In this document: piece by piece, positions 465-54,375 of the stretch | Position numbering within the stretch: the stretch's first letter is position 1 | Layout: the number at the start of each line of letters is the position of its first letter | From: Marivivens niveibacter | GTDB lineage: Bacteria > Pseudomonadota > Alphaproteobacteria > Rhodobacterales > Rhodobacteraceae | Length of the DNA stretch: 64,000 nt | Direction of reading: 5' to 3' | Assembly (NCBI RefSeq): GCF_002150005.2 | Contig: NZ_MSPP01000001.1 | Coordinates: 496,001-560,000, forward strand | Made by a program: the position numbers and the translations under genes | Notes under the pieces: generated by a model | Databases searched by the model: none | The model's input: only the letters and a program-made list of their open reading frames with translations | Told to the model about the DNA's origin: nothing

Positions 465-1565
465 ATGAACATTCATAATCAGGACATGGAACGCGAACCT
501 ACTCGGGAAGAGGCAGAGGCCGCATTGGCGCTGTTGCGCCGTTGGGCCAAAGACGTGACCGCAGAAGAGGTCGCAACGCTGGACCCACTGGTGTCGCGCC
601 TGATCCCTGGCCAAGAGGTGTCGAACTATCCGGCGCTGGCCCGCGCATATCCCGAAGATTTCGAAGTCGACGATGCGTACAAAGCATCGATGCCCGATTT
701 GCAGAACGGTCCGTCCAGCCTGATCCGCGGCGCGAAACAGCAAATCCAGCACGTCGGCATTTCGAATTTCCGCCTGCCAATCCGGTTTCACACCCGCGAC
801 AATGGCGATGTGACGCTGGAAACCTCTGTCACCGGTACGGTCAGCCTAGAGGCGGAAAAGAAGGGCATTAACATGTCCCGTATCATGCGGTCCTTCTACA
901 AACACGCCTCTGATACCTTTAGTTTCGAAGTGATGGAAACCGCCCTAGACGCGTACAAAGCTGACCTAGAAAGCTTTGACGCGCGCATTCAAATGCGTTT
1001 CCGTTTCCCGATGAAAGTGGCATCCCTGCGGTCGGGATTAGAAGGGTACCAGTACTACGACATCGCGCTGGAACTGGTTGAAAAGGCGGGTGTTCGCAAG
1101 AAAATCATCCATCTGGATTATGTCTATTCGTCGACCTGCCCATGTTCGCTGGAACTGTCCGAACATGCGCGTCAGTTCCGCGGCCAATTGGCGACTCCGC
1201 ATTCGCAGCGGTCCGTATCGCGTCTGTCCGCCGTGATCGAAGATGGCGAGATGCTGTGGTTTGAAGATCTGATCGACATGGCCCGCGATGCGGTGCCGAC
1301 AGAAACTCAGGTTATGGTGAAACGCGAAGACGAACAGGCGTTTGCGGAACTAAACGCCGCCAACCCCATCTTTGTCGAAGACGCAGCACGACTGTTCTGT
1401 GAACAGCTGCAAAATGATCCGCGCGTCGGTGATTTCCGCGTTATCGCCAGCCATCAAGAAAGCCTGCACAGCCATGATGCGGTATCTGTCCTGACCGAAG
1501 GCGACACCTTTGACAGCGAGAGTTTGGATCCGCGAATGTTCAGCACGCTGATCCATGTTGGATAA
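465..1565 (+). CDS. folE2: GTP cyclohydrolase FolE2 (type IB)
   Basis: This 366-residue protein matches the FolE2/COG1469 family, the zinc- or manganese-independent alternative to FolE that converts GTP to dihydroneopterin triphosphate for folate synthesis. Visible family blocks are QHVGISNFRLP, SLEAEKKGINMSR, the STCPCSLELSEHAR segment with the metal-binding cysteine, HSQRS, and the C-terminal SHQESLHSHDAV. An in-frame ATG at 357 overlaps the metZ stop and would add 36 residues. I prefer ATG 465 because GGAG lies 8 bases upstream and the protein then begins at the usual family start (MNIHNQDM). folB and folP of the same pathway lie about 11 kb downstream. Confidence 0.93.
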   Translation: MNIHNQDMEREPTREEAEAALALLRRWAKDVTAEEVATLDPLVSRLIPGQEVSNYPALARAYPEDFEVDDAYKASMPDLQNGPSSLIRGAKQQIQHVGISNFRLPIRFHTRDNGDVTLETSVTGTVSLEAEKKGINMSRIMRSFYKHASDTFSFEVMETALDAYKADLESFDARIQMRFRFPMKVASLRSGLEGYQYYDIALELVEKAGVRKKIIHLDYVYSSTCPCSLELSEHARQFRGQLATPHSQRSVSRLSAVIEDGEMLWFEDLIDMARDAVPTETQVMVKREDEQAFAELNAANPIFVEDAARLFCEQLQNDPRVGDFRVIASHQESLHSHDAVSVLTEGDTFDSESLDPRMFSTLIHVG

Positions 1566-1575
1566 GGCAACAAAG

Positions 1576-1602
1576 TTGACTTGCTTTGCGTCTATGTAAA
1601 TG
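1576..1602 (+). promoter_or_regulatory. possible sigma70-type promoter before the DUF1127 gene
   Basis: TTGACT at 1576-1581 is a good -35 candidate, with TAAATG at 1597-1602 as a weak -10. The spacing of 15 is short. It sits in the 128-base gap between folE2 and the small DUF1127 gene. Confidence 0.25.
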
Positions 1603-1693
1603 CTGCGTTGCAGTATTGGCGCTACACGCAAGGCAGGTTTTGCCCTAAGTTTGGATCAAGGGGGGAAACAACCGAATTAACGGAGTTTCCAAA

Positions 1694-1921
1694 ATGGCCA
1701 ATCTGGCAGTCAACGTTCACCTACCTGAACTACACGTCGCAGACGCATTCAAATCGTTCTTCAAATCCATCGCGCATGGTTTGGAACTATATATGGAGCG
1801 CAAATCGCGTTTCGCGGAAATGCAGTCATTGCAGTCCAAAACAGACGAAGAACTGGCTGAAATGGGCATCCGCCGCGATAAAATCGCTGTGCACGTGTTC
1901 AACGACCTGTTCTACGTTTAA
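1694..1921 (+). CDS. DUF1127 (YjiS-like) small protein
   Basis: A 75-residue protein preceded by CGGAG about 9 bases upstream of its ATG. The C-terminal half (QSKTDEELAEMGIRRDKIAVHVF) has the spacing of DUF1127 proteins: a short helix, then L-x-D/E-x-G-I-x-R-x-x-I. Family members are short basic proteins, abundant in alphaproteobacteria; some bind RNA or influence phosphate, carbon or sRNA-linked regulation, but no function can be assigned to this one. It stands alone between folE2 and trkH and probably has its own promoter. Confidence 0.8.
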   Translation: MANLAVNVHLPELHVADAFKSFFKSIAHGLELYMERKSRFAEMQSLQSKTDEELAEMGIRRDKIAVHVFNDLFYV

Positions 1922-1997
1922 TCGATTTTCGATGCTGGCGGGGCTAACCCGCTGGCACCGCTTGACTTAGCCGCCTAGGCAAGCCAAGCCTTCGTCC

Positions 1998-3446
1998 ATG
2001 ATGGACTTGCGACCAGTTGGATATGTTATCGGTTTGCTGACCGCAGTCTTGGGCTGCGCGATGATCGGACCCTTGTTGTTCGATCTCGCTCATGGTGATC
2101 CTGAATGGCACACGTTTATGCAAAGTGCCGTTATCACCATATCCGCAGGGTTATTTACATCGTTGGCTTGTGCGAATGGCAAAGGCCACGGTCTGAACCT
2201 GCGCCAAAGCTTTATCCTGACAACAGGCGTCTGGATTGCACTGCCCACTTTCGGGGCGATTCCGTTTATTATCGGTGAAACACAATTATCGCTGGTCGAT
2301 GCGATGTTCGAATCCATGTCGGGCATGACCACGACGGGTGCCACGGCGATCGAAGGTTTGGAAACGCATTCCTATGGTATTCTGCTTTGGCGTGCGATTT
2401 TGCAGTGGCTTGGCGGTCTCGGGATCGTCATCGTTGCGATGATTTTCCTGCCTGTGATGAAAGTCGGCGGGATGCAGTTTTTCCAATCCGAAGGTTTCGA
2501 CACGCTGGGTAAATCGTTGCCCCGCGCGTTGGATATCGCAAAGGGTTTGTTGCAGATTTATATCGGGCTGACGATTGTTTGCGCCTTGGGCTATATCGTG
2601 TCGGGCATGTCGACATTGGAAAGTATTGTGCATTCCTTTACCACGATTGCGACAGGTGGGTATTCGACGACAGATGCGTCCTTTGCGGCATTTCCGGGCG
2701 CGCCGCAATATGTGGCCAGCCTGTTCATGTTTTTGGCCTCGGTCCCATTTATTCGTTTCTTGCAAATGATTGTTGGCGATCCAAAACCATTGTTTCAGGA
2801 CATGCAGTTGCGCGGTTACCTGACATGGAGCGCATATGCCGTTGCTTTGATCGTGGTGTATCGCATGAGCCTAGAGGGCGAATTCACTGAGGAAATGTTC
2901 CGATCAACCCTGTTTAATGTCGTGTCGATTTTTTCGGGCACTGGGTACGGCGATGGCGATGTTATGGCATGGGGGCCGTTTGCCTTTGCGATCTTGTTTT
3001 GCGTTGGCATGATTGGCGGTTGTTCTGGATCGACTGGCTGTTCGATCAAAGTGTTCCGTTATCAAATCATGCTGCGGGCGATTTCGGCGCAGATCAAACG
3101 CTTGTACAGCCCGAACCGCGTTGTGTCTGTTCGTTTCGAAGGCCGTTCTGTGTCGGACGATGTTATGTCGTCGATCATGCTGCTGTTCACATGCTTTGTC
3201 CTGACCTTTGGTATCTTGATCGTTTTGATGGGTATGACGGGCATCAGTTTTCTGGCCGCTGTGACAGGGGCTTGGACATCAATTTTCAACATTGGTCCCG
3301 TTTTCGGACCCGAAGTTGGCCCCTCTGGCGCGATACATTTGTTTCCTGACACCGCGAAATGGTTGATGATCGTGGGAATGCTGTTGGGACGTTTGGAAAT
3401 TGTATCCGTGCTGGTGCTGGTACTGCCGCGTTTCTGGCGCGCATAA
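1998..3446 (+). CDS. trkH: TrkH-family potassium uptake membrane protein
   Basis: This 482-residue, highly hydrophobic protein has the repeated membrane-pore-membrane pattern of TrkH/KtrB. The pore-like segments SMSGMTTTGAT, FTTIATGGYSTTD, FSGTGYGDGD and the C-terminal TSIFNIGPVFGPEVG provide the conserved filter glycines, and GGCSGSTGCSIKVFR matches the TrkH loop after the third pore. It would move potassium across the inner membrane with a cytoplasmic TrkA subunit, which is not in this window. An alternative ATG follows immediately at 2001; no strong ribosome-binding site is visible for either. The gene converges on the next one with a shared terminator between them. Confidence 0.92.
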   Translation: MMDLRPVGYVIGLLTAVLGCAMIGPLLFDLAHGDPEWHTFMQSAVITISAGLFTSLACANGKGHGLNLRQSFILTTGVWIALPTFGAIPFIIGETQLSLVDAMFESMSGMTTTGATAIEGLETHSYGILLWRAILQWLGGLGIVIVAMIFLPVMKVGGMQFFQSEGFDTLGKSLPRALDIAKGLLQIYIGLTIVCALGYIVSGMSTLESIVHSFTTIATGGYSTTDASFAAFPGAPQYVASLFMFLASVPFIRFLQMIVGDPKPLFQDMQLRGYLTWSAYAVALIVVYRMSLEGEFTEEMFRSTLFNVVSIFSGTGYGDGDVMAWGPFAFAILFCVGMIGGCSGSTGCSIKVFRYQIMLRAISAQIKRLYSPNRVVSVRFEGRSVSDDVMSSIMLLFTCFVLTFGILIVLMGMTGISFLAAVTGAWTSIFNIGPVFGPEVGPSGAIHLFPDTAKWLMIVGMLLGRLEIVSVLVLVLPRFWRA

Positions 3447-3476
3447 AAAAAACCGGCCCAAATCAGGCCGGCTTTT
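3447..3476. terminator. bidirectional rho-independent terminator
   Basis: A-rich tract, then ACCGGCC-loop-GGCCGGC, then a T-rich tract. The stem of about 8 GC-rich pairs works in both directions and separates convergent trkH and the SPOR/protease-like gene. Confidence 0.85.
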
Positions 3477-3499
3477 ATTCGTTTGGCTTGAACGCCTGA

Positions 3500-5254
3500 T
3501 TACCAGCAATTCACCAAAACTGTGACATCGGAAGCGGCAGAGGTCAGCGTTTCAGGTGCCATATAACCGCTGCTGGTCGATTGATCGGCGCGAACCGAAG
3601 CTTCGGCAAGGGCGCTAAGGATTGCACCAGCGTTTGCTGCAAAGGCCACGTTTTCAGGCAGCATTTGACCGTTATTCGCTGGGGTTGGAACAAGAACGCC
3701 CACAACAGCGCCGCTGGCATCAAATACGGGGCCACCAACGTCGCCTTGGGTCGTGGTTAGGTTCAGGCGCAGTTTGCTGGCATCGCCTGTCAGATCAGAA
3801 CCATCTGCGACAGTGCCGAACGTCACCGTCGGCAATGCCAATGCGCCGCCATATGGGTATCCGCCCACTGCGATTGTCGCATCGCGATTTGCGGCTTGGG
3901 TTTGGATGACCGCGTGACCTAGCGGTGCCAGCGCCGTTTCAGGGGTCAGCACGGCCAATGTGCCATCATTGAACACGACGTTTGCTGGATAATCTCCACC
4001 GGCAACTGTCACGCGTTCACATTGATCAACGTTGGCAGCAGCAGTGACGGTCGTGCCGCGCGCATCAACAAAGAACCCCGAGGCCGAGTTTTTCGGCGTG
4101 CGAATGGCCAGACCAGATACCATATCAACCGAACTATCGGCAGGGGCTGCCGCAGGGCTCAGCAGTCCATCAATTGCAACAAAGCTGTTTTTCATCTCCG
4201 ACAGGACGCGATTGCGGCGTTCGTTATCGCCTGCCGGCCAAACCAGAACAAAGCCTTTGATCTCGCCGTTTTCGTGGCGTGCGGTCGCGTAGCTATGGCG
4301 CGTTTCGGATAGGCCTTCGATTTCAAAACTGTCGCTGCCGCGTTCCCGTGGGCCCTCTAGCGGCATGATTTCCAGCGTTTGCAGGATTTCGTATAGGCCA
4401 TACAGGCGGGTGCGGTCGCCTGGTTGGGAAATGACCAAAACCTGAACACCTGAATCGTCGGTGGCAGTATAGCGGGCGAAAGGCGATTCATTGGCGTCAA
4501 ACTGGACCAAACCCATTGGAATTTGCATCGCTACGCCCGTGTTCGCGTCTTCGATCAGTGTCAGGTCTGTGCCTTCTAGGATCGCGTTGTACTGGCTGCG
4601 CAGTTCAGCGCGTTGCGCGGTGGTCAGAATGCCGGTCACTTCATAGCCGTTCGCCTCTTGCCATGCGGCCATGGAATTGCGGGTGCCGCGACCAAACGAA
4701 CCGTCGATGCCAGCGTTATAAAAACCGGCCCATTGCAGCATCACCTGCAGGTCCATTTTCTGTTCGCGGGTCAGCTGAGCTTCTGATGCGCGCGCCTCGG
4801 CGGGTGTTTCATCAGGCAGCGTTGGTTCAGGTGCTGCGATCGGTTCGGCGTCTTCGGGCGCCATTGGCGGCTCGATCTGGGTTGTGTCGGTGGGAGGCTC
4901 GGATGGCAGGGGTTTGGGCGTATTGCTGATGCCAACGCCTACGGGCCAGAATTGTTGGCCGTATCGCTGACCGTCGCTGACAAATGAATCGCGCGGAATT
5001 TGACCTGTGCGGCGCAGTTGACGCAGTAGGTTTTCGGCATCTTGTTCGGAATATGGGCCCAAAGCTACGCCGTACCAATTGGACCCCAGATGAAACCCGA
5101 CGACATCATCCAATTGCGCCGAAAATTTTCGCGCTGCGTCTTGGGCTGCCGATAGGGTGGGGTGCGCCTCGATCTGGAGCCAGCTTGCGCTTTGTGCATG
5201 GGCCTGCACAGCGATTACAGCCGCGAAAACAATTCCCAGAAGTCGTTTTAACAT
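3500..5254 (-). CDS. Exported SPOR / peptidoglycan-binding protein with a degenerate trypsin-like domain
   Basis: The 584-residue protein starts with a signal peptide (about 1-21, cleavage after AHA). A SPOR-like repeat region follows (about 24-100), then a Pro/Glu-rich linker (110-160), a PG_binding_1 domain (about 162-228, AGFYNAGIDGSFGRGTRNSM), a middle region, and a trypsin/DegP-like fold from about 385 to 560. The last domain keeps the frame of a secreted serine protease, yet the nucleophile motif is GDVGGPVFD where GDSGGP is expected, the His position reads TAAANVDQC where TNAHVV is usual, and the Asp position reads NDGTLAVLTP. All three catalytic residues therefore seem lost. I infer a cell-wall-binding pseudo-protease in the periplasm, perhaps a scaffold. 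Its divergent neighbour is glyQ. Confidence 0.85.
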   Translation of the reverse strand: MLKRLLGIVFAAVIAVQAHAQSASWLQIEAHPTLSAAQDAARKFSAQLDDVVGFHLGSNWYGVALGPYSEQDAENLLRQLRRTGQIPRDSFVSDGQRYGQQFWPVGVGISNTPKPLPSEPPTDTTQIEPPMAPEDAEPIAAPEPTLPDETPAEARASEAQLTREQKMDLQVMLQWAGFYNAGIDGSFGRGTRNSMAAWQEANGYEVTGILTTAQRAELRSQYNAILEGTDLTLIEDANTGVAMQIPMGLVQFDANESPFARYTATDDSGVQVLVISQPGDRTRLYGLYEILQTLEIMPLEGPRERGSDSFEIEGLSETRHSYATARHENGEIKGFVLVWPAGDNERRNRVLSEMKNSFVAIDGLLSPAAAPADSSVDMVSGLAIRTPKNSASGFFVDARGTTVTAAANVDQCERVTVAGGDYPANVVFNDGTLAVLTPETALAPLGHAVIQTQAANRDATIAVGGYPYGGALALPTVTFGTVADGSDLTGDASKLRLNLTTTQGDVGGPVFDASGAVVGVLVPTPANNGQMLPENVAFAANAGAILSALAEASVRADQSTSSGYMAPETLTSAASDVTVLVNCW

Positions 5255-5429
5255 AGTCTTTCCAAAATCCGAACTTTACCAATTGTGTGTCTATCGCACC
5301 TGATGCCGCATGAACATAGCCCCGAAACGGTTCAAAAACAGTGCGAATGGGTAAATGTGACCTGCATGCCCCAATTGACCCCATGCCCCATGCATCATAT
5401 TCAGGCGCGGAACCGAAAAGAGGGCGACC
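5255..5429. promoter_or_regulatory. divergent intergenic region (SPOR/protease-like gene and glyQ)
   Basis: This 175-base gap between divergently transcribed genes must hold promoters for both. I see no clear operator, riboswitch or T-box-like structure. GAGGG just before 5430 serves as the glyQ ribosome-binding site. Confidence 0.5.
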
Positions 5430-6362
5430 ATGGCCGATAAACCCCGTTCTTTCCAAGAGATCATCCTGCGACTCCAGAATTACTGGGCAGCAAAAGGATG
5501 CGCAGTGCTGCAACCCTACGATATGGAGGTCGGCGCTGGTACGTTCCACCCCGCGACCACCCTGCGTTCGCTGGGCGACCGTGCATGGGCCGCAGCCTAT
5601 GTTCAGCCGTCGCGCCGTCCGACCGATGGTCGCTATGGTGAAAACCCGAACCGTTTGCAGCACTACTACCAGTACCAAGTGCTGATCAAACCATCGCCGC
5701 CCGATCTGCAGGACCTGTATTTGGGTTCGCTCGAGGCGATTGGCATCGACAGTTCGCTGCATGACATCCGTTTCGTCGAAGACGACTGGGAATCCCCAAC
5801 GCTGGGCGCATGGGGTTTGGGTTGGGAAGTCTGGTGTGACGGCATGGAAGTGTCGCAGTTCACCTATTTCCAACAGGTTGGCGGCCACGACTGTAAACCT
5901 GTGTCGGGCGAATTGACCTATGGTCTGGAACGTTTGGCGATGTACGTATTGGGCGTGGATCACGTCATGGACATGCCGTTCAACGATCCTGAATCGCCAA
6001 TCGCACTGAAATATGGCGATGTCTTCCGTCAAACCGAAGAAGAATATTCGCGCCATAACTTTGACGTGGCCGACACCGATCAGCTGTTACAGCATTTCAT
6101 CGACGCAGAGGCCGAATGCCAACGCATTCTGGACAACCCTGCCGTTGATCCGAAAACGGGCAAACGCATCGTCATGGCGCACCCCGCCTATGACCAGTGC
6201 ATAAAAGCATCGCACCTGTTCAACCTGCTGGACGCGCGCGGCGTGATTTCGGTCACCGAACGTCAGGCTTATATTGGCCGTGTCCGCGCGCTGGCGAAAC
6301 TATGTGCTGACGCCTTTGTTCAGACCGAGGCAGGCGGCTATGTGGCCGAGGCTGCGGAATGA
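5430..6362 (+). CDS. glyQ: Glycyl-tRNA synthetase alpha subunit
   Basis: At 310 residues this has the usual GlyQ length. Family blocks are [18 protein letters not shown] at the start, [19 protein letters not shown], the class II aminoacyl-tRNA synthetase motif region with [22 protein letters not shown], and [12 protein letters not shown]. Together with GlyS it forms the alpha2-beta2 enzyme that charges tRNA-Gly in the cytoplasm; the alpha subunit carries the adenylation active site. The ATG at 5430 follows GAGGGCGACC. Its stop overlaps the start of the next gene by 4 bases (ATGA), so glyQ, the DUF6446-type gene and glyS are translationally coupled. Confidence 0.97.
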
Positions 6363-6892
6363 AACCGGTTCAAATGGCAATCACGGCAATTGTTGTGTCC
6401 GCCGCCGCTGCGGGTGGGCTGATGTATTACAATCAGGTCTACGCGTTCTATGACCGCGTGGATGCGGCTGATTTTGGCCAGATCGAACTGACTTCGACCA
6501 TCACTGGGCTGCCAGAACCGATCCTGACCAATGATTTTCAGGCCATCGATAGCGAAAGCTCTCCGATCCGGTTTCGTGCGTGTTTTACCACGCCGATCAG
6601 TCTGGGTACTTTGACCGATACCTATGAAATCTATGAAACGGCTGAACCGCTGAACGGCCCCGGTTGGTTTGATTGCTACGACGCCCGCACCGTGGGTCAG
6701 GCGATTGAACGCGGCGACATGATCGCATTCATGGGCACCGAAAACATTCAATACGGCATCGACCGCGTTGTCGCGTTTGATCAGGCTGGCAATGGCTATG
6801 TCTGGGAACAGATCAACGCATGTGGCGAAGCGAAATTTCAGGGTGACCCGCTGCCATCGGGCTGCGAACCCGCACCAGAGGGGGGCAACTAA
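6359..6892 (+). CDS. DUF6446-type membrane-anchored protein between glyQ and glyS
   Basis: This 177-residue protein starts with one N-terminal membrane segment (about 5-25, [17 protein letters not shown]), leaving a C-terminal domain in the periplasm. The domain contains the block PIRFRACF and four cysteines (in RACF, FDCYD, INACGE and PSGCEP) that could pair as disulfides. I recall the family as DUF6446, found in Rhodobacteraceae at this same place between glyQ and glyS, but could not verify this. It overlaps glyQ by 4 bases and glyS by 1 base, so it is co-translated with both. No link to tRNA charging is visible in its sequence and its function is unknown. Confidence 0.85.
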
Positions 6893-44172: not shown

Positions 44173-44262
44173 GGAGGAGTGGCAGAGTGGTTTAATGCAC
44201 CGGTCTTGAAAACCGACGTACGTGGAAGCGTACCGTGGGTTCGAATCCCACCTCCTCCGCCA
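44173..44262 (+). tRNA. tRNA-Ser (anticodon TGA)
   Basis: A 90-base class II tRNA with encoded CCA. The acceptor GGAGGAG pairs with CTCCTCC, the D arm is TGGCAGAGTGGTTTAATGCA, the anticodon TGA is at 44207-44209, the long variable arm is TACGTGGAAGCGTA, and the T arm is GGGTTCGAATCCC. An integrase gene starts 140 bases downstream, so the 3' end is the probable attachment site of the adjacent element. Confidence 0.95.
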
Positions 44263-44402
44263 TTTCCAAAGTCGCAAATTTGGTGTTTGCCCTTGTAAAT
44301 AAGGGATTTTCGCTCTTGTTTGTGCGTTCGGGAAAATCGCCGCCGTTGTTTTGCTATACATTTTGCTATACATATCGCTGACACCAATGGGCTGGGGGCG
44401 GT

Positions 44403-45722
44403 ATGAAAGGTTTGAAGAAACGCCGATCGACGTGGCATTTAGTGCGCCGCGTTCCGACCGATTTTCATGATGTTGAACCGCGCCGTTTACTTACGCTTAG
44501 TCTTAGGACCGATTCCAAAAAGCTTGCCGCCGAAAAGGCCACGCAGGTGTGGGACAATTTGTTAGAGGGCTGGCAGGCTCTGAAAGATGGCCGTTCTGAC
44601 GATGCCGATGTTCGGTTTAAGGCCGCCCAACGTATTTGTGCAAACAAAGGTTTTCAATATCTGCCCGTGGCCGAGGTCGCCGACCTGCCACTGGTCGATC
44701 TGCTTAAACGGGTAGAGGCCGCCATTCAGTCGAACGGTCATGTCGATGCTGATGTGGCAGCGGCAACGCTGGGAACGGTATCAGAGCCACAGTTATTACT
44801 TTCACAGCTGGTAGATCACGTTGAAGGCCTGTCCGCGCATGAAAATCGGTTCAAAAATGATGCTCAGTTAAAGGCATGGCGTAATCCACGCAAACGCGCG
44901 GTTAAAAACCTAACGGCAGCGATTGGAGGTGACAAACCTGTAGCGCAATTGACGCGCGCTGACGTGCTGTTGCACCGTCGGTATTGGCAGGAACGCATCA
45001 AACAGCGCGGGTTGGATATCGAAACGGCCAACAAAGATTTTACGAACATGTCCGGGATGCTGTCACGCTATTATGACGATTTGGGGGTCGAGGATCCACC
45101 GCGTATCTACAACGGCGTTAATCTGACTGATCGACACAAAAAAAACACGCGCAAGGACGAAGTGCCTGTAGCATTTATTTTGGAAAAATGGTTTGCAAAT
45201 GGCGCGCTGGATTGCTTGAATACCGAAGCGCGCGACATTCTGTTAATCAGCATTGAAACAGGTTGTCGCCAAAGCGAAATCTACAACCTGCCAGCGTCCG
45301 CGTTTCAGTTAGATGCGCCCATCCCCCACATCGTCATCAAAAACGAAGAGGGCGTGCGCGAGATCAAGAACAAGCATTCCGCGAGATTGGTGCCGTTGTT
45401 TGGCGTGGCGCTCGCGGCGGCCAAACGAAACCCGAATGGGTTTCCGCGCTATCACGGCAAAACGAGCTACAGCAATGGGGTTCATAAAACGCTGCGCAAA
45501 AATGGATTGTTGCCCCGCGGTATTACAGTGGGCGGTTTGCGGCATACGTTCGAAAGCCGATTGAAAGGCGTCGAAGTGCAGTCGGATGACCGTGGTGAGC
45601 TGATGGGCCACTCTGTTGCCAATATCCGTGGTCGCGAATGGTATGGGGATGAAATGCATTTAGAACAGCGCGCCGCGATCATGCAGGCTATTGCATTTCC
45701 GGTTCCAGACTATCTGAAGTGA
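44403..45722 (+). CDS. Tyrosine-type site-specific integrase (DUF6538-type N terminus)
   Basis: 439 residues. The N terminus (RRSTWHLVRRVPTDFHDVEP...LSLRTDSKKLAAEKA) matches the DUF6538 arm-binding type. A SAM-like core domain follows (about 150-230), then the catalytic domain: ETGCRQSEI with the first Arg, IKNKHSARLVPL with the Lys, GGLRHTFESRL with the second Arg and following His, GHSVANIRGREWYGD with the final His and the Tyr nucleophile. The residue three before the second Arg, usually His, is Gly. It would recombine the element at the tRNA-Ser 3' end. The start, close to the tRNA, is typical for such elements. Confidence 0.9.
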   Translation: MKGLKKRRSTWHLVRRVPTDFHDVEPRRLLTLSLRTDSKKLAAEKATQVWDNLLEGWQALKDGRSDDADVRFKAAQRICANKGFQYLPVAEVADLPLVDLLKRVEAAIQSNGHVDADVAAATLGTVSEPQLLLSQLVDHVEGLSAHENRFKNDAQLKAWRNPRKRAVKNLTAAIGGDKPVAQLTRADVLLHRRYWQERIKQRGLDIETANKDFTNMSGMLSRYYDDLGVEDPPRIYNGVNLTDRHKKNTRKDEVPVAFILEKWFANGALDCLNTEARDILLISIETGCRQSEIYNLPASAFQLDAPIPHIVIKNEEGVREIKNKHSARLVPLFGVALAAAKRNPNGFPRYHGKTSYSNGVHKTLRKNGLLPRGITVGGLRHTFESRLKGVEVQSDDRGELMGHSVANIRGREWYGDEMHLEQRAAIMQAIAFPVPDYLK

Positions 45723-45912
45723 TTGCCGGTCGGTTTGCATCAACGATACGCCGCGCTTGCGCAAGCAGGTCGCGCTTTGCATGCATGGCAGAGAGTTCGT
45801 TGTTTAGTCTTTCGAAAATCGGCAGATAGGCTTCGTTTTCCAACGCCAGCTCTGCGATAGTGACCAATGCGCGTTCTAACTGCGCTGTGGTGATTTCCCC
45901 TGCTGTCACCAT
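45688..45912 (-). CDS. Small helical protein convergent with the integrase gene
   Basis: 74 residues from ATG 45912, preceded by a G-rich stretch (GGGGGT, 9 bases up). The sequence is mostly amphipathic helix (TTAQLERALVTIAELALENE, LPIFERLNNELSAMHAKRDLL). Its 3' end overlaps the integrase 3' end by 35 bases on the opposite strand. The frame is open further upstream to 46071, but that part looks non-coding. It could be a small DNA-binding or excision-type factor; no family is recognised. Confidence 0.5.
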   Translation of the reverse strand: MVTAGEITTAQLERALVTIAELALENEAYLPIFERLNNELSAMHAKRDLLAQARRIVDANRPAITSDSLEPEMQ

Positions 45913-46390
45913 CCCGAATAGACCCCCTGCGAATAGGGGGCTGCATCGAAATACAGCTTCTTGGGGGGATTGATCATTATGGCCTTTGTCGCGTTTTTTT
46001 CCGAAACTGATCAGATAGAGGAGTTTTGATTTGCGAATGCAAGACAATTCCCCAACTTTTCTGGTTTCCACGTTTCTTTTTCGAAATCAGTGTCGATCGG
46101 GGTGGTGAAAGTGCAAAACACTATCTCTGGCAAAAAATGTCGGCGATTGAGTTGAAATAGAAATCGCGAGCCATTATTATTCGATTATGCAAAGACAGGC
46201 CCTCATATCCGCGTAACGCACACTCCGTTCGTTTTTCGCGATATATGAAGGTATTCCATGACTGTTTTTCGTGTTCAGCGCCTTTTGGCGCCCATCCGAT
46301 ATTCTGCAAGACTGCTAAAATCTGCGACTGACCTGTACGAGGTCGGCAGCAGCTGTTTTGAAATCACCACAGCGTTCTGGGGGTGGTTCA
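45913..46390. other. non-coding stretch inside the element
   Basis: About 480 bases with stop codons in all likely frames and AT-richer stretches around 46090-46160. It may hold promoters for the rightward genes and arm-type integrase sites. I found no clear repeat or tRNA. Confidence 0.4.
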
Positions 46391-46570
46391 ATGACCTATT
46401 ATGAACCGCAGGACTTTATGGCAGGGTCAGGCGGCGACGATGATTTACTGGTAGATTCTGTGGGGATGGCGATGTGGCGCATGGCCGGTCACCTTGTCCA
46501 GATGGCGGAACCTGTGTCGCGCATTGGTATGAACCGATCGGATCAGCCGAGGAGTTGGTCCGTGCATTAA
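46391..46570 (+). CDS. Small uncharacterised protein of the element (59 aa)
   Basis: ATG 46391 follows GGGGGTGG by about 5 bases and encodes MTYYEPQDFMAGSGGDDD and onward. The peptide is acidic at first, then Met-rich (VGMAMWRMAGHLVQMAEP). Its end overlaps a second open frame (46474-46755) that looks more protein-like, so one gene split by a frameshift is possible. Confidence 0.35.
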   Translation: MTYYEPQDFMAGSGGDDDLLVDSVGMAMWRMAGHLVQMAEPVSRIGMNRSDQPRSWSVH

Positions 46571-46755
46571 CGCAAGAGGCATTGCGGAACGATCTATCTC
46601 TGCGCGCTTTGTTGCGTATTGCAACAACAGTCATTCACGATGCTGGTGTGGCGTTGCACCGATGGCCGTCTTTTGTGGAAAACGTCACCTGCTTTTCTGC
46701 TTTGTTTCTATACGTTCCAATCAGTACATCACTACAATACTACCATCAGATCTAG
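46474..46755 (+). CDS. Possible small protein or frameshifted continuation of the preceding gene
   Basis: A 93-codon frame from GTG 46474. The central part (WYEPIGSAEELVRALTQEAL, NDLSLRALLRIATTVIHDAG) has the alternation of a real helical protein, while the last 30 codons enter AT-rich DNA and look non-coding. No good ribosome-binding site is present, which favours a frameshift from the overlapping frame that starts at 46391. Confidence 0.3.
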   Translation: MAHGRSPCPDGGTCVAHWYEPIGSAEELVRALTQEALRNDLSLRALLRIATTVIHDAGVALHRWPSFVENVTCFSALFLYVPISTSLQYYHQI

Positions 46756-46963
46756 GAAATAAATTATCCCAAATTCATGTCCGATATAGGATCTGGAGAT
46801 GTTAGCAAAATTAACTGAATTGTTGTCAGATCGAATTGGTTCGATAAATCAAAGACCTGATATTTTATTTCCCAAGAATTTCGCAGTTTCGCCGAAAAAA
46901 CAGTTTGTAATGCGTGTTCGCGCGACCTTCATTTGTTTCAAATCGAACAACGAAGGTACTGGA
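46756..46963. promoter_or_regulatory. AT-rich leader of the replication genes
   Basis: A locally AT-rich stretch (about 46730-46870) directly before the primase-like gene. Its composition and position fit a promoter and possibly the element's replication origin, but I could not find a convincing iteron set. Confidence 0.35.
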
Positions 46964-47704
46964 ATGACGATCAGGTTCACGACATTTACGAGCGAAGCCC
47001 CGAAGCGGCTGACAAAGCATATCACTCTGCAGGACGGGGCACTGGTGACCGAGGCTGGCGGTTACATGACGCGCGGTATGTATGTGGTGGATGAATGTGC
47101 GAACATCTCTGAATTCGGGGACCATATCGCTTCATTGCGTACCAATCAGGCCCTGTCCTATGGCCTGCCCAAGGGTGCAGAAATGGGCATGGTCGTGACG
47201 CGCGCAGTGTATGAGGCGCTGCCCGTTGAACAGCGGGAGGGGCGTATCGCGCGGATCAACGACCATTTCGAATGGCCTGACGGTCCCGGCATTTTCATGA
47301 TCGATATTGATCCACCCAAAGATGCGTCGGCTTTGACGAAGTCCGAGGCGATCAACTTGATCCGCGGCGTTGCGCCTGAACTCAAGGATGTGCCCATGCT
47401 TTGGTATCCGTCATCCAGTAGCATGATCTATGCAGACGATGGCACTGAAATGTCAGGTCTGCGGGGGCAAAGGTTCTATGTTCCCGTGACCGATGCAAAG
47501 CAGATACCGGAGTTTGCGGAACATCTATGGGTGCGGTGCTGGGCGGCGGGTCATGGGTATATCGCCATCAGCAAATCGGGCAGTATCCTGAAGCGGACGA
47601 TTTTTGACAAAAGCGTCTATCAGCCCAGCCGCCTGGATTTTGCAGCGGGGGCGAGTACGGGCCCCCATTTGATCCAGCGCCGCGGCCAGCCGGAGGTAGT
47701 GTAA
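46964..47704 (+). CDS. Probable AEP-type primase (prim-pol) of the element
   Basis: 246 residues from ATG 46964, which has AAGG 7-9 bases upstream; the frame is open further up but AT-rich. FMIDIDPPKD gives the D-x-D metal motif expected for archaeo-eukaryotic primases (near residue 113), WYPSSSSMIYADDG resembles the small-residue motif before the second catalytic strand, and KSVYQPSRLDFAAG matches the third motif block seen in plasmid and phage prim-pols. The usual motif II His is not evident (GLRGQRFYV). The gene overlaps the helicase gene (TAATG), so both are co-translated. I infer a primase that starts replication of the element. Confidence 0.55.
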   Translation: MTIRFTTFTSEAPKRLTKHITLQDGALVTEAGGYMTRGMYVVDECANISEFGDHIASLRTNQALSYGLPKGAEMGMVVTRAVYEALPVEQREGRIARINDHFEWPDGPGIFMIDIDPPKDASALTKSEAINLIRGVAPELKDVPMLWYPSSSSMIYADDGTEMSGLRGQRFYVPVTDAKQIPEFAEHLWVRCWAAGHGYIAISKSGSILKRTIFDKSVYQPSRLDFAAGASTGPHLIQRRGQPEVV

Positions 47705-49680
47705 TGGGCGCGATGATCGATGATTTTCTGAATGTTGCCTCTGTCATGGTCGAAGAGGCATCAAAGGCCGAAGCGAAAAAGCGCGAGGATGAAGCGGCGC
47801 AGGCGGCTACAGATGACGCAGCTACGCAGCGCAAAATCTGGTTGGCGGAACGCCGCGATGAAATCATGCGCAAGCACGGTTTGACCGCAGCTGTCGCAGA
47901 TCAAATTCTGCTCCGCGCCGCCGATCAGCTGGAGTTGTCCGGAGAGTTTGAACTACATGTCGTCGATCCGAAAACCTTTGAGCCGGAAGTCGTAACGGTT
48001 CGGGACGTGCTGGAAAACCCGGACACATATCACAATCGCACGACGTTGGACCCGCTAGAACCAGAGTACTGCGATTACAAAAGCGTCGGTGTTTTGTTCC
48101 TGAAGGGTAGGGCGCCCAAACTTGTTTCGCAGGCTCATGGCGGCGCGACTTACGCATTGGTGCGCGGGATGTCCGAAAACACGATCGAGCGTATCCGGAT
48201 TGAATTCACGCCTGACAACCCTGCCGGTTTTGTCGATCGCTGTGTCGAGGCGTTGAGGGCCACTGGTCTGTATTACACGTCAGGATCGACGACGGTGTGC
48301 CGCAATGGTCAGCAATTCAAACCTGTCCGGACGGAACGTTTGGACTACGACCTGTCGCGGATCGTCGCGCCATTCAAATACGAGATGACTAAAAAAGGCC
48401 CCGCGCGCAAATCCATCGACATTCCGCGTCGGTTGCTGTTGCAGGTCGAAACGTTATGTGACGGCAAATTGCCGAAATTGGCGGGCACGTCGGACCATCC
48501 ACTGTGCCGCTTGGATGGAACCCTGATTGCCGATGCTGGCTATGATGACAAAACAGGCGTGTTTATTTTCAACGGGACCGACGCGGTGCCCGAGATTTCT
48601 CGCTCGTTCGACGCGCCCGCAATGAAAGCGGCGGTCGAAACCTGCCTGACACCATTTCGCGCCTATCATTTTCCGGACAAGGTGTTGGGGCGTACAGCGC
48701 TTCTTGCCGCTGTGATGACGGCCGTTTTGCGTCCGGCGTTAGATACCGCACCGATGATCGCTGTCAGCAGTCCCGAAGTTGGCGTGGGTAAATCGTTCAT
48801 CGCGCAGGCGCTTGGCGTGCTGGCGACTGGCGAATTGCCCCGTATGAAGAGCGTGGAAAGATCTGGCAGCGCGGAGATGCGCAAACTGCTGCACGCGGAT
48901 CTGCTCGAACAAAATCCGGTGATTATCTATGACAACATGGACGGCAATTTCCGGAACGAGGTGCTGACCAGCTTTATCGCGTCGCCGATTTGGTCAGACC
49001 GCATTCTGGGCGAAAGCCGGACAGGCGGTTCGATCCGTAACACCGCGCTATTGATTTCAAATGGCGTGAACATGACGTTTCCGCGTGGGATGAACCGTCG
49101 GTATCTGTTGATCGACCTCTTGCCAGCTTGCGACGATCACATCACTGCAGATTTCGGTTTCACGCCGCAGAGCGAGGCTAAACGCATGCGCGCAGACATC
49201 ATCTCGGCGGCATTGTCGATTGCGGTCGCGGCCCGCCCGGACAAAGCGTTGTCCGGAACTTTGGGATCGTTCGAAGGCTGGACACGCATGGTTAGGGACC
49301 CGATCCTGCGTCTGTCGCGGGAAATTCCCGAGCTGGGCCTTTGCGATCCACTGGACCTGTTCAAACAGGCAATCAGTGATGCATCCGAAGTCGAAACCTA
49401 TCATTCGTTCCTGTTCTCCTTGGCCGAAAAGTTCGGCCCAGAGGATTTCACGGCCGATCAAGTCCGCACTGCGATTTTCGCTGATGAGATGCTGGAACGC
49501 CTGTGCCGTGAAATCTCGGACTCTGATCCGTCGCTGTCGGTCCGAAGCGTAGCCGCGCTCATGTCGAAATTGAAAGGCGTCAACTATAACGGAGCCAAAC
49601 TAACCGCCCGCAAAAGGGCAGGAACCAACCTATGGCGCATCGAAGTGGAGGCGCCGAAAGCGATTATGAAGATCGTTTAA
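47704..49680 (+). CDS. AAA+/SF3-like helicase of the element (replication protein)
   Basis: 658 residues. The N-terminal third is charged and helical (VMVEEASKAEAKKREDEAAQ). The C-terminal part has a P loop AVSSPEVGVGKSFIAQ (near 359), Walker B VIIYDNMDG (near 405), a sensor-like NTALLISNGVNM and an arginine-finger-like RGMNRRYLLIDL (near 460). This is the layout of a D5/SF3-type or related primase-associated helicase. It probably unwinds the element's origin with the upstream primase-like protein. A winged-helix-like end follows (about 590-650). A strong terminator ends the pair. The specific family is not recognised. Confidence 0.6.
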   Translation: MGAMIDDFLNVASVMVEEASKAEAKKREDEAAQAATDDAATQRKIWLAERRDEIMRKHGLTAAVADQILLRAADQLELSGEFELHVVDPKTFEPEVVTVRDVLENPDTYHNRTTLDPLEPEYCDYKSVGVLFLKGRAPKLVSQAHGGATYALVRGMSENTIERIRIEFTPDNPAGFVDRCVEALRATGLYYTSGSTTVCRNGQQFKPVRTERLDYDLSRIVAPFKYEMTKKGPARKSIDIPRRLLLQVETLCDGKLPKLAGTSDHPLCRLDGTLIADAGYDDKTGVFIFNGTDAVPEISRSFDAPAMKAAVETCLTPFRAYHFPDKVLGRTALLAAVMTAVLRPALDTAPMIAVSSPEVGVGKSFIAQALGVLATGELPRMKSVERSGSAEMRKLLHADLLEQNPVIIYDNMDGNFRNEVLTSFIASPIWSDRILGESRTGGSIRNTALLISNGVNMTFPRGMNRRYLLIDLLPACDDHITADFGFTPQSEAKRMRADIISAALSIAVAARPDKALSGTLGSFEGWTRMVRDPILRLSREIPELGLCDPLDLFKQAISDASEVETYHSFLFSLAEKFGPEDFTADQVRTAIFADEMLERLCREISDSDPSLSVRSVAALMSKLKGVNYNGAKLTARKRAGTNLWRIEVEAPKAIMKIV

Positions 49681-49695
49681 TAATGGAGACCATGT

Positions 49696-49735
49696 AAAAT
49701 GCGCCCTTTTTACTGACGCGAAAGGGCGCATTTTC
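49696..49735. terminator. rho-independent terminator after the helicase gene
   Basis: AAAATGCGCCCTTT, loop of about 10, AAAGGGCGCATTTT: a perfect stem of about 13 pairs with a T-rich end. Confidence 0.85.
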
Positions 49736-49982: not shown

Positions 49983-51695
49983 ATGCATTCTACACATACC
50001 CCGATCCCCGAGCTGTATGTATCGTACGACTCTGCCCAGAAACTGAAAGTCGAAGCTGCTGATCTGACCAGCCACGACCTGACGCCGCGCCAGATTTGCG
50101 ATCTGGAGCTGTTGATGAACGGCGGTTTCAACCCGCTGAAAGGTTTCCTGTCGGAAGAAGATTACAACGGCGTCGTGGAAAACATGCGCTTGGCAGACGG
50201 CCAGCTGTGGCCAATGCCGATCACTCTGGACGTGACCGAAGATTTCGCATCGAAAATCGAACTGGGTCAGGACATCGCCCTGCGTGACCAAGAAGGCGTC
50301 ATTCTGGCGACCATGACTGTCACCGACAAATGGGAACCAAACAAATCGCGCGAAGCTGAAAAAGTATTCGGCGCGGACGATCTGGCGCACCCTGCGGTCA
50401 ACTATCTGCACAACACCGCTGGTAAAATCTATCTGGGCGGCCCTGTCACCGGCATTCAGCAGCCCGTTCACTATGATTTCCGCGGTCGCCGCGACACGCC
50501 AAACGAACTGCGCGCCTATTTCCGCAAAATGGGCTGGCGCAAGGTTGTTGCGTTCCAAACCCGTAACCCTCTGCACCGCGCGCACCAGGAACTGACGTTC
50601 CGCGCCGCACGCGAAGCGCAGGCCAACCTGCTGATCCACCCTGTTGTCGGCATGACCAAACCGGGCGACGTGGACCATTTCACCCGCGTGCGCTGCTACG
50701 AAGCGGTTCTGGACAAATACCCAGCGGCCACCACCACCATGTCGCTGCTGAACCTTGCTATGCGTATGGCTGGCCCGCGCGAAGCTGTCTGGCACGGCCT
50801 GATCCGTAAAAACCACGGCTGTACCCACTTTATCGTTGGTCGCGACCACGCTGGCCCTGGCAAAAACTCGGCTGGCGAAGATTTCTACGGCCCATATGAC
50901 GCGCAGGATCTGTTCCGCGAACACCAGTCCGAAATCGGCATCGAAATGGTCGACTTCAAACACATGGTTTACGTGCAGGAACGCGCACAATACGAACCAG
51001 CGGACGAGATCGCAGACAAAGACGACGTGACCATCCTGAACATCTCGGGCACCGAACTGCGTCGCCGTCTGGCCGAAGGTCTGGAAATTCCGGAATGGTT
51101 CAGCTTCCCCGAGGTTGTGACCGAACTACGCAAAACCAAACCGCCACGTTCGAAACAAGGCTTTACCGTGTTCTTCACCGGTTTCTCGGGCTCGGGCAAA
51201 TCGACCATCGCGAACGCGCTGATGGTGAAACTGATGGAAATGGGCGGCCGCCCTGTGACCCTGCTGGACGGTGACATCGTTCGTAAGAACCTGTCGTCGG
51301 AACTGGGCTTCTCGAAAGAGCACCGCGACCTGAACATCCGCCGCATCGGCTATGTAGCGTCCGAGATCACCAAAAACGGTGGTATCGCGATCTGTGCGCC
51401 TATCGCGCCATACACCGCAACCCGCCGCGCTGTTCGTGAAGACATCGAACAATACGGTGCCTTTGTCGAAGTCCACGTTGCGACCACGATCGAAGAATGC
51501 GAACGCCGTGACCGCAAAGGCCTGTATAAACTGGCACGCGAAGGCAAAATCAAAGAGTTCACCGGTATCTCTGACCCATACGAGACCCCAACGAACGCAG
51601 AACTGGTTGTCGAAACCGAAAACGTCGAAGTCGACAACTGCGCACATCAGGTTCTGCTGAAACTGGAAAGCATGGGTCTGATCTCGGGCAAATAA
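49983..51695 (+). CDS. Bifunctional sulfate adenylyltransferase / adenylylsulfate kinase
   Basis: 570 residues. Residues about 1-385 form ATP sulfurylase (PUA-like start ELYVSYDSAQK, QTRNPLHRAHQELTFRAA with the HxxH-type motif, GRDHAGPGKN, ISGTELRRRLAEG). Residues about 395-570 form APS kinase (FFTGFSGSGKSTIANAL P loop, DGDIVRKNLSSELGFSKEHRDLNIRRIGYVA, YKLAREGKIKEFTGISDPYE). It makes APS and then PAPS from sulfate and ATP. PAPS is used for assimilation or as sulfate donor, and a sulfotransferase gene lies about 5 kb away. The protein is usually annotated Sat/CysC fusion in Rhodobacteraceae. A terminator follows. Confidence 0.96.
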   Translation: MHSTHTPIPELYVSYDSAQKLKVEAADLTSHDLTPRQICDLELLMNGGFNPLKGFLSEEDYNGVVENMRLADGQLWPMPITLDVTEDFASKIELGQDIALRDQEGVILATMTVTDKWEPNKSREAEKVFGADDLAHPAVNYLHNTAGKIYLGGPVTGIQQPVHYDFRGRRDTPNELRAYFRKMGWRKVVAFQTRNPLHRAHQELTFRAAREAQANLLIHPVVGMTKPGDVDHFTRVRCYEAVLDKYPAATTTMSLLNLAMRMAGPREAVWHGLIRKNHGCTHFIVGRDHAGPGKNSAGEDFYGPYDAQDLFREHQSEIGIEMVDFKHMVYVQERAQYEPADEIADKDDVTILNISGTELRRRLAEGLEIPEWFSFPEVVTELRKTKPPRSKQGFTVFFTGFSGSGKSTIANALMVKLMEMGGRPVTLLDGDIVRKNLSSELGFSKEHRDLNIRRIGYVASEITKNGGIAICAPIAPYTATRRAVREDIEQYGAFVEVHVATTIEECERRDRKGLYKLAREGKIKEFTGISDPYETPTNAELVVETENVEVDNCAHQVLLKLESMGLISGK

Positions 51696-54097: not shown

Positions 54098-54375
54098 TTT
54101 TTTCCGAGCGCCTCCTTCAGGAGGTCATTCTGCATGCTGACGTCGGCATACATGCGCTTCAGGCGGCGGTTCTCCTCCGCCATCGACTTCATCTCGCTGA
54201 TCAGGCTGGCGTCCATCCCACCGTACTTCGCCCGCCATTTGTACAGTGTAGCACTGCTCATCCCGTGCTCACGGCACAGCTCGGCTGCAGGTACTCCGCC
54301 TTCCATCTGGCGCAGCACAGTCATGATCTGCGCTTCGGTAAATCGTGTCTTCTTCATCAGAATCTCCTCGTTCAT
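54094..54375 (-). CDS. IS3-family (IS407-like) transposase orfA
   Basis: 93 residues. [20 protein letters not shown] and [24 protein letters not shown] form the HTH_Tnp_1 domain, followed by a helical zone [24 protein letters not shown] second possible start lies at the internal Met (MKKTRF). Confidence 0.92.

Follow-up and report, generated by a model that had tools for sequence, protein, structure and literature searches.

Genes and features of the tRNA-Ser(UGA) locus

The window analysed here is a stretch of 64,000 nucleotides of the Marivivens niveibacter genome. In it, a tRNA-Ser(UGA) gene is followed by an integrase gene, a convergent small gene, a primase gene, a helicase gene and sat, in that order. 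The features are as follows (positions in the window, strand, description):

44173..44262, + strand: tRNA-Ser(UGA), Rfam tRNA 60.3 bits; presumably provides the attachment core with its 3' end
44349..44372, + strand: 12-bp repeat TTTTGCTATACA, twice in tandem; presumed arm-type sites of the integrase
44403..45722, + strand: tyrosine recombinase (integrase), 439 aa, DUF6538 N-terminus, PHROG integrase
45688..46071, - strand: convergent small ORF, 127 aa, GTG start, with tblastn relatives at other integrase loci
46719..46773, + strand: conserved block outside coding sequence (ATCACTACARTACTAC ... GAAATAAATTATCC), which may be an origin or operator
46964..47704, + strand: PrimPol-type (archaeo-eukaryotic) primase, 246 aa, motif I MIDIDPP, PHROG 16593
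47704..49680, + strand: D5/SF3-type AAA+ helicase, 658 aa, Walker A SPEVGVGKS, best Foldseek matches D5-type
49696..49734, + strand: perfect inverted repeat resembling a terminator (arms of 14 bp, loop of 11 nt), just after the helicase gene
49983..51695: sat (sulfate adenylyltransferase/APS-kinase), second copy

The region from 44263 to a point between 49734 and 49982, about 5.4-5.7 kb directly past the 3' end of tRNA-Ser(UGA), looks like an integrative element. The initial annotation had described a tyrosine integrase 140 bases past tRNA-Ser and a D-x-D protein overlapping a 658-residue P-loop protein by one base; both descriptions were confirmed, the integrase ORF starting 140 nt past the tRNA gene and the helicase ORF at 47704, the last base of the primase gene. 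The strong terminator placed after these genes is indeed a perfect inverted repeat, but it is not listed by a consensus terminator scan, whose loop limit is 8 nt; overall, that scan returned 7 terminators against a shuffle mean of 7.7, hence no excess. Only about 250 bp separate this stem from sat, and two IS3-type elements lie to the right of sat. The designation of the downstream gene as a core gene had to be abandoned: this sat is a second copy, the other being located at G000:C1:418438-420132 beside genes that by eye resemble trxB and purK, and the two copies share 99% amino acid identity and 94.9% nucleotide identity over 1757 columns.

Three start-codon ORFs and 10 of 25 stop-to-stop frames in the gaps were scanned with profiles. 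Of the 'small unknown genes' announced there, the convergent ORF has relatives, but the other frames scanned gave no relevant family match (only phrog_6582 at 0.04 and an irrelevant sub-threshold Pfam match). As had been proposed, the scan of ORFs between tRNA-Ser and sat turned up no structural gene. P4-like satellites and PICIs are defined by packaging or capsid-remodelling genes; no PHROG match to such genes was obtained among the six ORFs scanned. An integrative and conjugative element is defined by relaxase and mating-pair genes; the ORFs scanned had no Pfam match to relaxase, mating-pair or conjugation genes, which leaves the proposed ICE remnant without support. Excisionase, AlpA and HTH_17 were also without match in the ORFs scanned, the 10 of 25 gap frames included. 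Except for the repeats that precede int, no short repeats (iterons) above shuffles were detected in the non-coding stretches of the element.

The integration module

The integrase matched Pfam DUF6538 at 1.6e-9 and PHROG integrase at 5.7e-21, and its match to Pfam Phage_integrase was sub-threshold (17.9 bits against 27.1). Its catalytic boxes match those of its relatives, and the gene is apparently intact. Such relatives are present in 78 of 394 genomes of the family at E<=1e-20. The int gene directly follows tRNA-Ser(UGA) in G006 and G316 (55% and 54%), and elsewhere follows tRNA-Ser CGA or GGA or, once, tRNA-Arg; among 20 loci scanned, own included, tRNA-Ser lies beside int at seven and tRNA-Arg at one. 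Sequence comparison places the integrase in a tRNA-targeting family that mostly uses tRNA-Ser.

Two further features accompany these integrases. Period-12 repeats (at least 10 of 12) were found upstream of int in 22 of 30 regions, own included, compared with a mean of 0.2 and a maximum of 2 in 100 shuffles. Relatives of the convergent ORF 45688-46071, which overlaps the 3' end of int and has no Pfam or PHROG match, were detected by tblastn (E<=0.01) at 12 of the 29 other integrase loci. The 12-bp repeats and the convergent small gene mark the integration module in many Rhodobacterales islands with differing cargo, and should make such islands easier to find and delimit.

Attachment sites and the element-free layout

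The right attachment site was sought by exact and fuzzy searches of the window and the genome. The 17-nt 3' end of tRNA-Ser, with up to two mismatches, has a single match in the whole own genome; a second core, and with it a right attachment site, was hence not found. The longest match, 12 nt at 54172-54183, was rejected as attR and taken as chance: one of 20 mononucleotide shuffles contained a match of that length, and the match falls within an open orfA of the IS3 family of which plasmid records have near-identical copies. A 9-nt match between the left and right flanks was at chance level (p 0.27).

No distal core was seen either in the stretches examined of eight of nine relatives with int beside a tRNA gene (5.7-40 kb, several ending at contig ends); the ninth, G314, shows one. 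These nine derive from 14 genomes, of which G055, G240 and G013 were omitted (no tRNA gene beside int in the stretch), and G009 and G267 were counted apart because int is at the far end; the elements of the latter two are flanked by repeated tRNA 3' ends, 23 of 24 nt identical. No attachment repeats above shuffles were found for G020, G212 and G590. Since most relatives show no distal core in these stretches, its absence at the own locus may not mean decay, and may instead be a property of the class or result from the limited stretches. The low identity of the tRNA-Ser to those of six congeners (only 74-75 of 90 positions) raised the idea that it was imported by the element; this was dropped because tRNAs of the own type, up to 97% identical, are frequent in the family and it is the congeners that deviate.

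In the congener G249, tRNA-Ser is followed after about 160 bp by sat, an element-free layout. This is the layout that the empty site called for in the initial annotation would show, but it runs across a contig break and has no defined junction: the break falls inside sat, and by elimination the sequence continues into a contig with genes of polysaccharide type. For this reason the right boundary of the element is not fixed. By tblastn, no int, primase or helicase match was found in nine congener stretches (those of G249 and G252 are cut off by contig ends 0.37 and 0.75 kb past the tRNA gene), nor were helicase, primase or integrase matches found in G117, the one congener searched genome-wide. 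The G249 layout and the congener stretches without such matches support the proposal that an integrative element equipped with a primase-helicase sits at tRNA-Ser.

The primase and the helicase

For the D-x-D protein, ATG 46964 (246 aa) is the probable start rather than 46799 (301 aa), because relatives of the protein align from there and the model of the 246-aa version is confident (mean pLDDT 93.5). It matched PHROG 16593 DNA primase at 9.3e-55 and had no Pfam match at 0.1. Residues D114, D116 and D215 (the D-x-D of motif I and the Asp of motif III) are invariant in 19 sequences, and Cereibacter plasmid proteins 35% identical to it are annotated with a primase small-subunit domain. Foldseek matches were weak, none in PDB at E<=0.001, the best being a LigD polymerase domain (E 0.034, TM 0.38). 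Profile matches occur in only 12 of 394 family genomes; related primases were found in 24 phage records and, at 9 and 8 loci (partly identical sets), in IMG/VR contigs.

The helicase has no Pfam match at 0.1 and its model is moderate (pLDDT 71.8). Foldseek matched 94 PDB chains at E<=0.001 (best E 9e-7; TM-scores at most 0.32, normalised to the query), and 49 of the best 50 of these are D5-type or related primase-helicases. The P-loop G362 K363, the Walker B D410 and the arginines R465 R466 are invariant in seven sequences; in a more diverse set of 14, only G362 K363 are. Viral contigs scanned with the helicase as a single protein gave no match.

A split replication module with a conserved upstream block

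In most of the relatives found (genomes were searched one by one within the class), primase and helicase form one fused protein. Pacificibacter marinus DSM 25228 (L155, L173) encodes them separately (65% and 54% identical, respectively), and since it shows the same split, with a 4-nt overlap, a recent frameshift was ruled out. Between the two species pN is 0.25 for the primase and 0.34 for the helicase, against pS of 0.78 and 0.74 (synonymous change being saturated), which suggests purifying selection on both. The pairs also share the 55-bp block upstream of the primase gene (local alignment score 39, reached by 0 of 1000 shuffles, maximum 28), located 190 nt from the primase start here and 191 nt in P. 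marinus. Its 16-nt core occurs once in the own genome at up to two mismatches; 19 matches of this core in viral contigs, none with primase, helicase or integrase profile matches, were taken as chance.

Further unfused cases are G141, where the pair is cut at another point, and apparently G331 (a 432-aa AEP frame, then an overlapping 457-aa frame) and G464 (a 292-codon frame close to a contig end).

A fused homologue is carried by the 6.5-kb circular plasmid pA32H2, with no other named replication gene among its four listed genes (PLSDB gene lists are incomplete). The replication module was absent from all 20 related-integrase stretches (19 genomes), and the combination therefore looks chimeric. 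G020 and G590 show a similar minimal layout with other integrases: tRNA-Ser, int, a small gene matching AlpA or HTH_17 below threshold, and a fused primase-helicase.

Nature of the element

We rather favour a compact integrative element at tRNA-Ser(UGA), a chimera of an integrase module and a split replication module that is probably unable to excise normally. The integrase module appears widespread and the split replication module rare, and the element looks like an uncommon form of an established type of mobile DNA. The replication genes look intact and selected; since no second attachment core was found, excision by the normal route has probably been lost, which would leave a minimal self-replicating integrative element, probably immobilised. 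In such an element, the integrase would carry out recombination between the 3' end of the tRNA gene and the identical core of a circular form. The helicase would load at the conserved block that precedes the primase gene and unwind the circle, and the primase would start DNA synthesis for host polymerases.

The same genes could be the end of a larger tRNA island whose right part and attR were deleted or replaced by the sat/IS3/exopolysaccharide region. This is rather unlikely: the lack of attR in the own genome and the two IS3-type elements agree with it, as does the P. marinus pair, which sits amid defence-like genes about 12 kb from a DUF6538-like protein by tRNA-Asn, but a terminator-like stem closes the helicase gene shortly before sat, and in G249 sat directly follows the tRNA, so that the element simply fills the tRNA-sat gap. 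It is less probable still that a phage satellite remains mobile here, a helper inducing excision and packaging the circle amplified by the primase-helicase. Size and gene order resemble those of PICMI (as outlined in PMC10803314), and related primases occur in phage records and IMG/VR contigs; against this, no helper is known, and no AlpA, attachment pair or packaging gene was found, whereas PICMI excision requires alpA according to the same outline. The initial annotation took an integrase beside a tRNA with a primase-helicase pair as the signature of self-replicating integrative elements and phage satellites, but there is no support for this pairing being enough to mark a satellite: the ORFs scanned gave no packaging, capsid-remodelling or AlpA gene, none of the 20 related-integrase stretches carries the replication module, and no right attachment site was found. 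That these are fixed host genes devoid of mobile function, such as a resident defence or repair primase-helicase, is highly improbable. Neither primase nor helicase has a Pfam match and no attR was found, which would fit such genes, but the primase profile is restricted to few family genomes, the pair adjoins an apparently intact integrase at a tRNA gene and has homologues on plasmids and in phages, and PADLOC gave no match at 0.01 for integrase, primase or helicase.

Beyond the chimeric element itself, we tentatively consider, as possible but doubtful, a previously undescribed Rhodobacterales lineage of minimal replicons: a two-gene PrimPol and D5-type helicase module with its own conserved cis block that swaps unrelated integration modules and tRNAs and travels alone, as here, or with defence-like cargo, as in Pacificibacter, satellite-like but without AlpA. 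The element would be close to the smallest set able to integrate and copy itself. Because primase and helicase are kept as two genes, both activities and the putative origin can be tested apart.

Comparison with known systems

P4-like satellites and PICIs, which frequently sit at a tRNA gene, carry an integrase and a replication gene of the primase-helicase type. The present element resembles them in having these genes at a tRNA, and differs in that no capsid-size, terminase or regulatory genes were found in its ORFs scanned.

The PICMI satellites of Vibrionaceae are 6.1 kb long, carry int, a gene overlapping int, alpA and a primase, and are modelled by int, alpA and primase together (PMC10803314). 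The element is likewise very small, with int, a small int-overlapping gene, a replication primase and a reduced gene content. It departs from them in that no AlpA was found, that it sits at tRNA-Ser where they use fis, that the gene overlapping int runs convergently and that primase and helicase are encoded by two genes; nor is a helper or a pair of attachment sites known for it.

PrimPol-PV1 and related AEPs, as described in PMC5862659, share the D-x-D motif, a variable motif II residue, AAA+ helicase partners and a location in integrated elements; here, unlike in PrimPol-PV1, primase and helicase are separate genes, and the primase is assigned as AEP-type only, to no family within AEP. The CCPol-MP/Cch2 pair of SCCmec also consists of separate primase and helicase genes forming the replication module of an integrative element, but involves an A-family polymerase with its partner, an unrelated primase and element, in the account of PMC7581432.

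A further counterpart is the P. marinus locus. There the stretch is larger and includes ZorA/ZorB-like genes as well as a gene for an FtsH-like protein, which matches IetA models too, and the pair lies about 12 kb from a different, 685-aa protein (sub-threshold DUF6538) adjoining tRNA-Asn, the nearest tRNA; yet both loci have the same split pair, overlapping genes and a shared upstream block.

Layout of the tRNA-Ser locus

The region from tRNA-Ser(UGA) to the sat gene is organized as follows:

44173-44262, tRNA-Ser(UGA), upstream of the integrase ORF
44403-45722, integrase ORF (int), beginning 140 nt past tRNA-Ser(UGA)
45688-46071, minus strand, small convergent ORF (127 aa), overlapping the end of int
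46964-47704, primase
47704-49680, helicase (658 aa)
49696-49734, terminator-like stem
49983-51695, sat/APS-kinase gene

The initial annotation placed small unknown genes after the integrase. The convergent ORF (45688-46071) answers to this description, and an ORF scan gave no convincing genes in the remaining gap up to the primase at 46964. Relatives of this ORF were present at 12 of the 29 other integrase loci, and neither a Pfam nor a PHROG family was found for it.

Integrase family and attachment sites

The integrase is a member of the DUF6538 integrase family, with relatives (E ≤ 1e-20) in 78 of 394 family genomes. The HxxR box of tyrosine integrases usually starts with His. Neither the window's integrase nor the aligned relatives have His at that position; by this measure the window's enzyme is therefore like its family. 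Upstream of int, tandem repeats of period 12 (at least 10 of 12) were observed at 22 of 30 loci, own included (44349-44372; others among loci L115-L143), compared with a mean of 0.2 and a maximum of 2 in 100 shuffles. Other periods gave none (9-11, 13 and 14) or one (15). The repeat unit is near TTTTGCTACACA, in either orientation, and, judged by sequence, conserved 12-bp tandem repeats of this kind characterize the Rhodobacterales integrase family in general.

A tRNA-Ser was found beside int in 7 of the 20 loci scanned (own included) and a tRNA-Arg in one. In G009 and G267, where int lies at the far end, a second copy of the tRNA-Ser 3' end adjoins int (23/24 nt identical). When int was directly beside the tRNA, a second core (the repeat of the tRNA 3' end at the other end of the element) was present within the fetched stretch of one of nine relatives (G314, tRNA-Arg, 2 mismatches in 20) and was not found within those of the other eight, nor in the own genome. 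The G314 tRNA-Arg locus (L232/L233) carries an element of about 6 kb that has the same integrase type, a relative of the convergent small ORF and a protein of 444 aa, relaxase-like by eye, and that is bounded by the tRNA 3' end on one side and a partial copy on the other.

The replication pair

The primase matched a PHROG DNA primase (9.3e-55), and the helicase matched phrog_29234 (1.8e-33) and, weakly (2e-5), a further part of the primase's fused PHROG family; a Pfam scan gave no match for either. The primase model was confident (pLDDT 93.5) and had weak PDB matches, the top one being the LigD polymerase domain (E 0.034). The helicase model, of moderate confidence (pLDDT 71.8), best matched D5-type primase-helicases (from E 9e-7, TM-scores at most 0.32).

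The primase was present in 12 of 394 family genomes (14 places) and in 3 of 385 genomes in the class search, own included in both. Its open frame has at least 772 codons in 11 of the 14 places, 304 in the own genome, and 433 and 505 in two others. Among seven named relatives in the GTDB collection, six carry the fused form, two of them taken to be the genomes G212 and G375, and the seventh, Pacificibacter marinus, has separate genes like the window. Primase relatives also occur in 24 phage and 12 plasmid records; a 6.5-kb plasmid has no other named replication gene among its four listed genes, and a 17.7-kb plasmid also carries an integrase gene. Compared with P. marinus, nonsynonymous differences are fewer than synonymous ones in both primase and helicase, synonymous sites being saturated.

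Ahead of the primase lies a 55-bp block that P. marinus shares, at almost the same distance from the gene. Its alignment score of 39 was reached by none of 1000 shuffles, and six fused relatives scored 17-21. In P. marinus the ATCACTACAGTACTAC half recurs as a second near-copy some 10 kb away, upstream of another gene. The block is a candidate origin or operator, both being possible.

A proposed combination of two modules

The initial annotation had suggested a search for the same three-gene set elsewhere. AEP and helicase profiles matched in none of 20 related-integrase stretches (19 genomes; 6-40 kb, several cut by contig ends), and likewise not in the G007 stretch, the eleventh of the first integrase set. 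The closest relatives of the replication pair are found in different surroundings. In G375 there is an integrase adjoining a dusA-like gene; in G212, whose short contig has no integrase, there is an excisionase-like gene close to tRNA-Ser. In P. marinus the neighbours are ZorA/ZorB-like and FtsH/IetA-like genes, and a protein of 685 aa (sub-threshold DUF6538 match) adjoins tRNA-Asn, some 12 kb away from the helicase. More distant fused proteins in G020 and G590 stand in the layout tRNA-Ser, int, small HTH/AlpA-like gene (both sub-threshold). Because the pair is absent from the related-integrase stretches scanned and its nearest relatives have other neighbours, we interpret the window element as putatively chimeric, assembled from two modules, rather than as belonging to a single conserved three-gene family.

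Positions 1550-6876 of the P. marinus locus (L155) may hold a Zorya variant: they encode a ZorB-like protein (4.5e-31) that includes an SNase domain, a protein with weak similarity to ZorA (3.4e-5) and the products of two genes without assignment.

The sat neighbour and a candidate element-free site

The gene beyond the terminator-like stem, initially called a core gene, proved not to be the core copy of sat: the other copy lies at G000:C1:418438-420132 in the own genome (proteins 99% identical, DNA 94.9%). To the right of the window's sat are two IS3-type elements and genes resembling, by eye, an exopolysaccharide cluster. Both here and in the congener G249, an exopolysaccharide-type cluster that includes a gene resembling a sulfotransferase (by eye) lies close to the tRNA-linked copy.

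In G249, sat starts about 160 bp past tRNA-Ser and contig C18 terminates within it; contig C10 opens with a sat end followed by polysaccharide-like genes, one of them sulfotransferase-like (by eye). Since contigs C7 and C19 hold relatives of the core copy's surroundings, C18 and C10 were joined by elimination. As assembled in this way, G249 shows an element-free layout of the tRNA-Ser/sat place, a candidate for the empty site sought at this locus, though across a contig break. The sequence past the tRNA differs in all six congeners (by eye). A tblastn search of nine congener stretches gave no match to int, primase or helicase, the G249 and G252 contigs ending 0.37 and 0.75 kb past the tRNA; genome-wide searches with the three proteins, which among congeners covered G117 only, gave no match there either. 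The window's tRNA-Ser(UGA) is identical to those of the six congeners at 74-75 of 90 positions, versus up to 97% identity to other genera.

Comparison with known systems

We favour, with moderate confidence, a minimal integrative element, most likely able to replicate when circular and probably stuck; the integrative nature first proposed is retained, and the satellite identity offered with it is less probable. Of described systems, PICMI (PMC10803314) comes closest; the window element differs from it in having no recognised AlpA and in occupying a different site.
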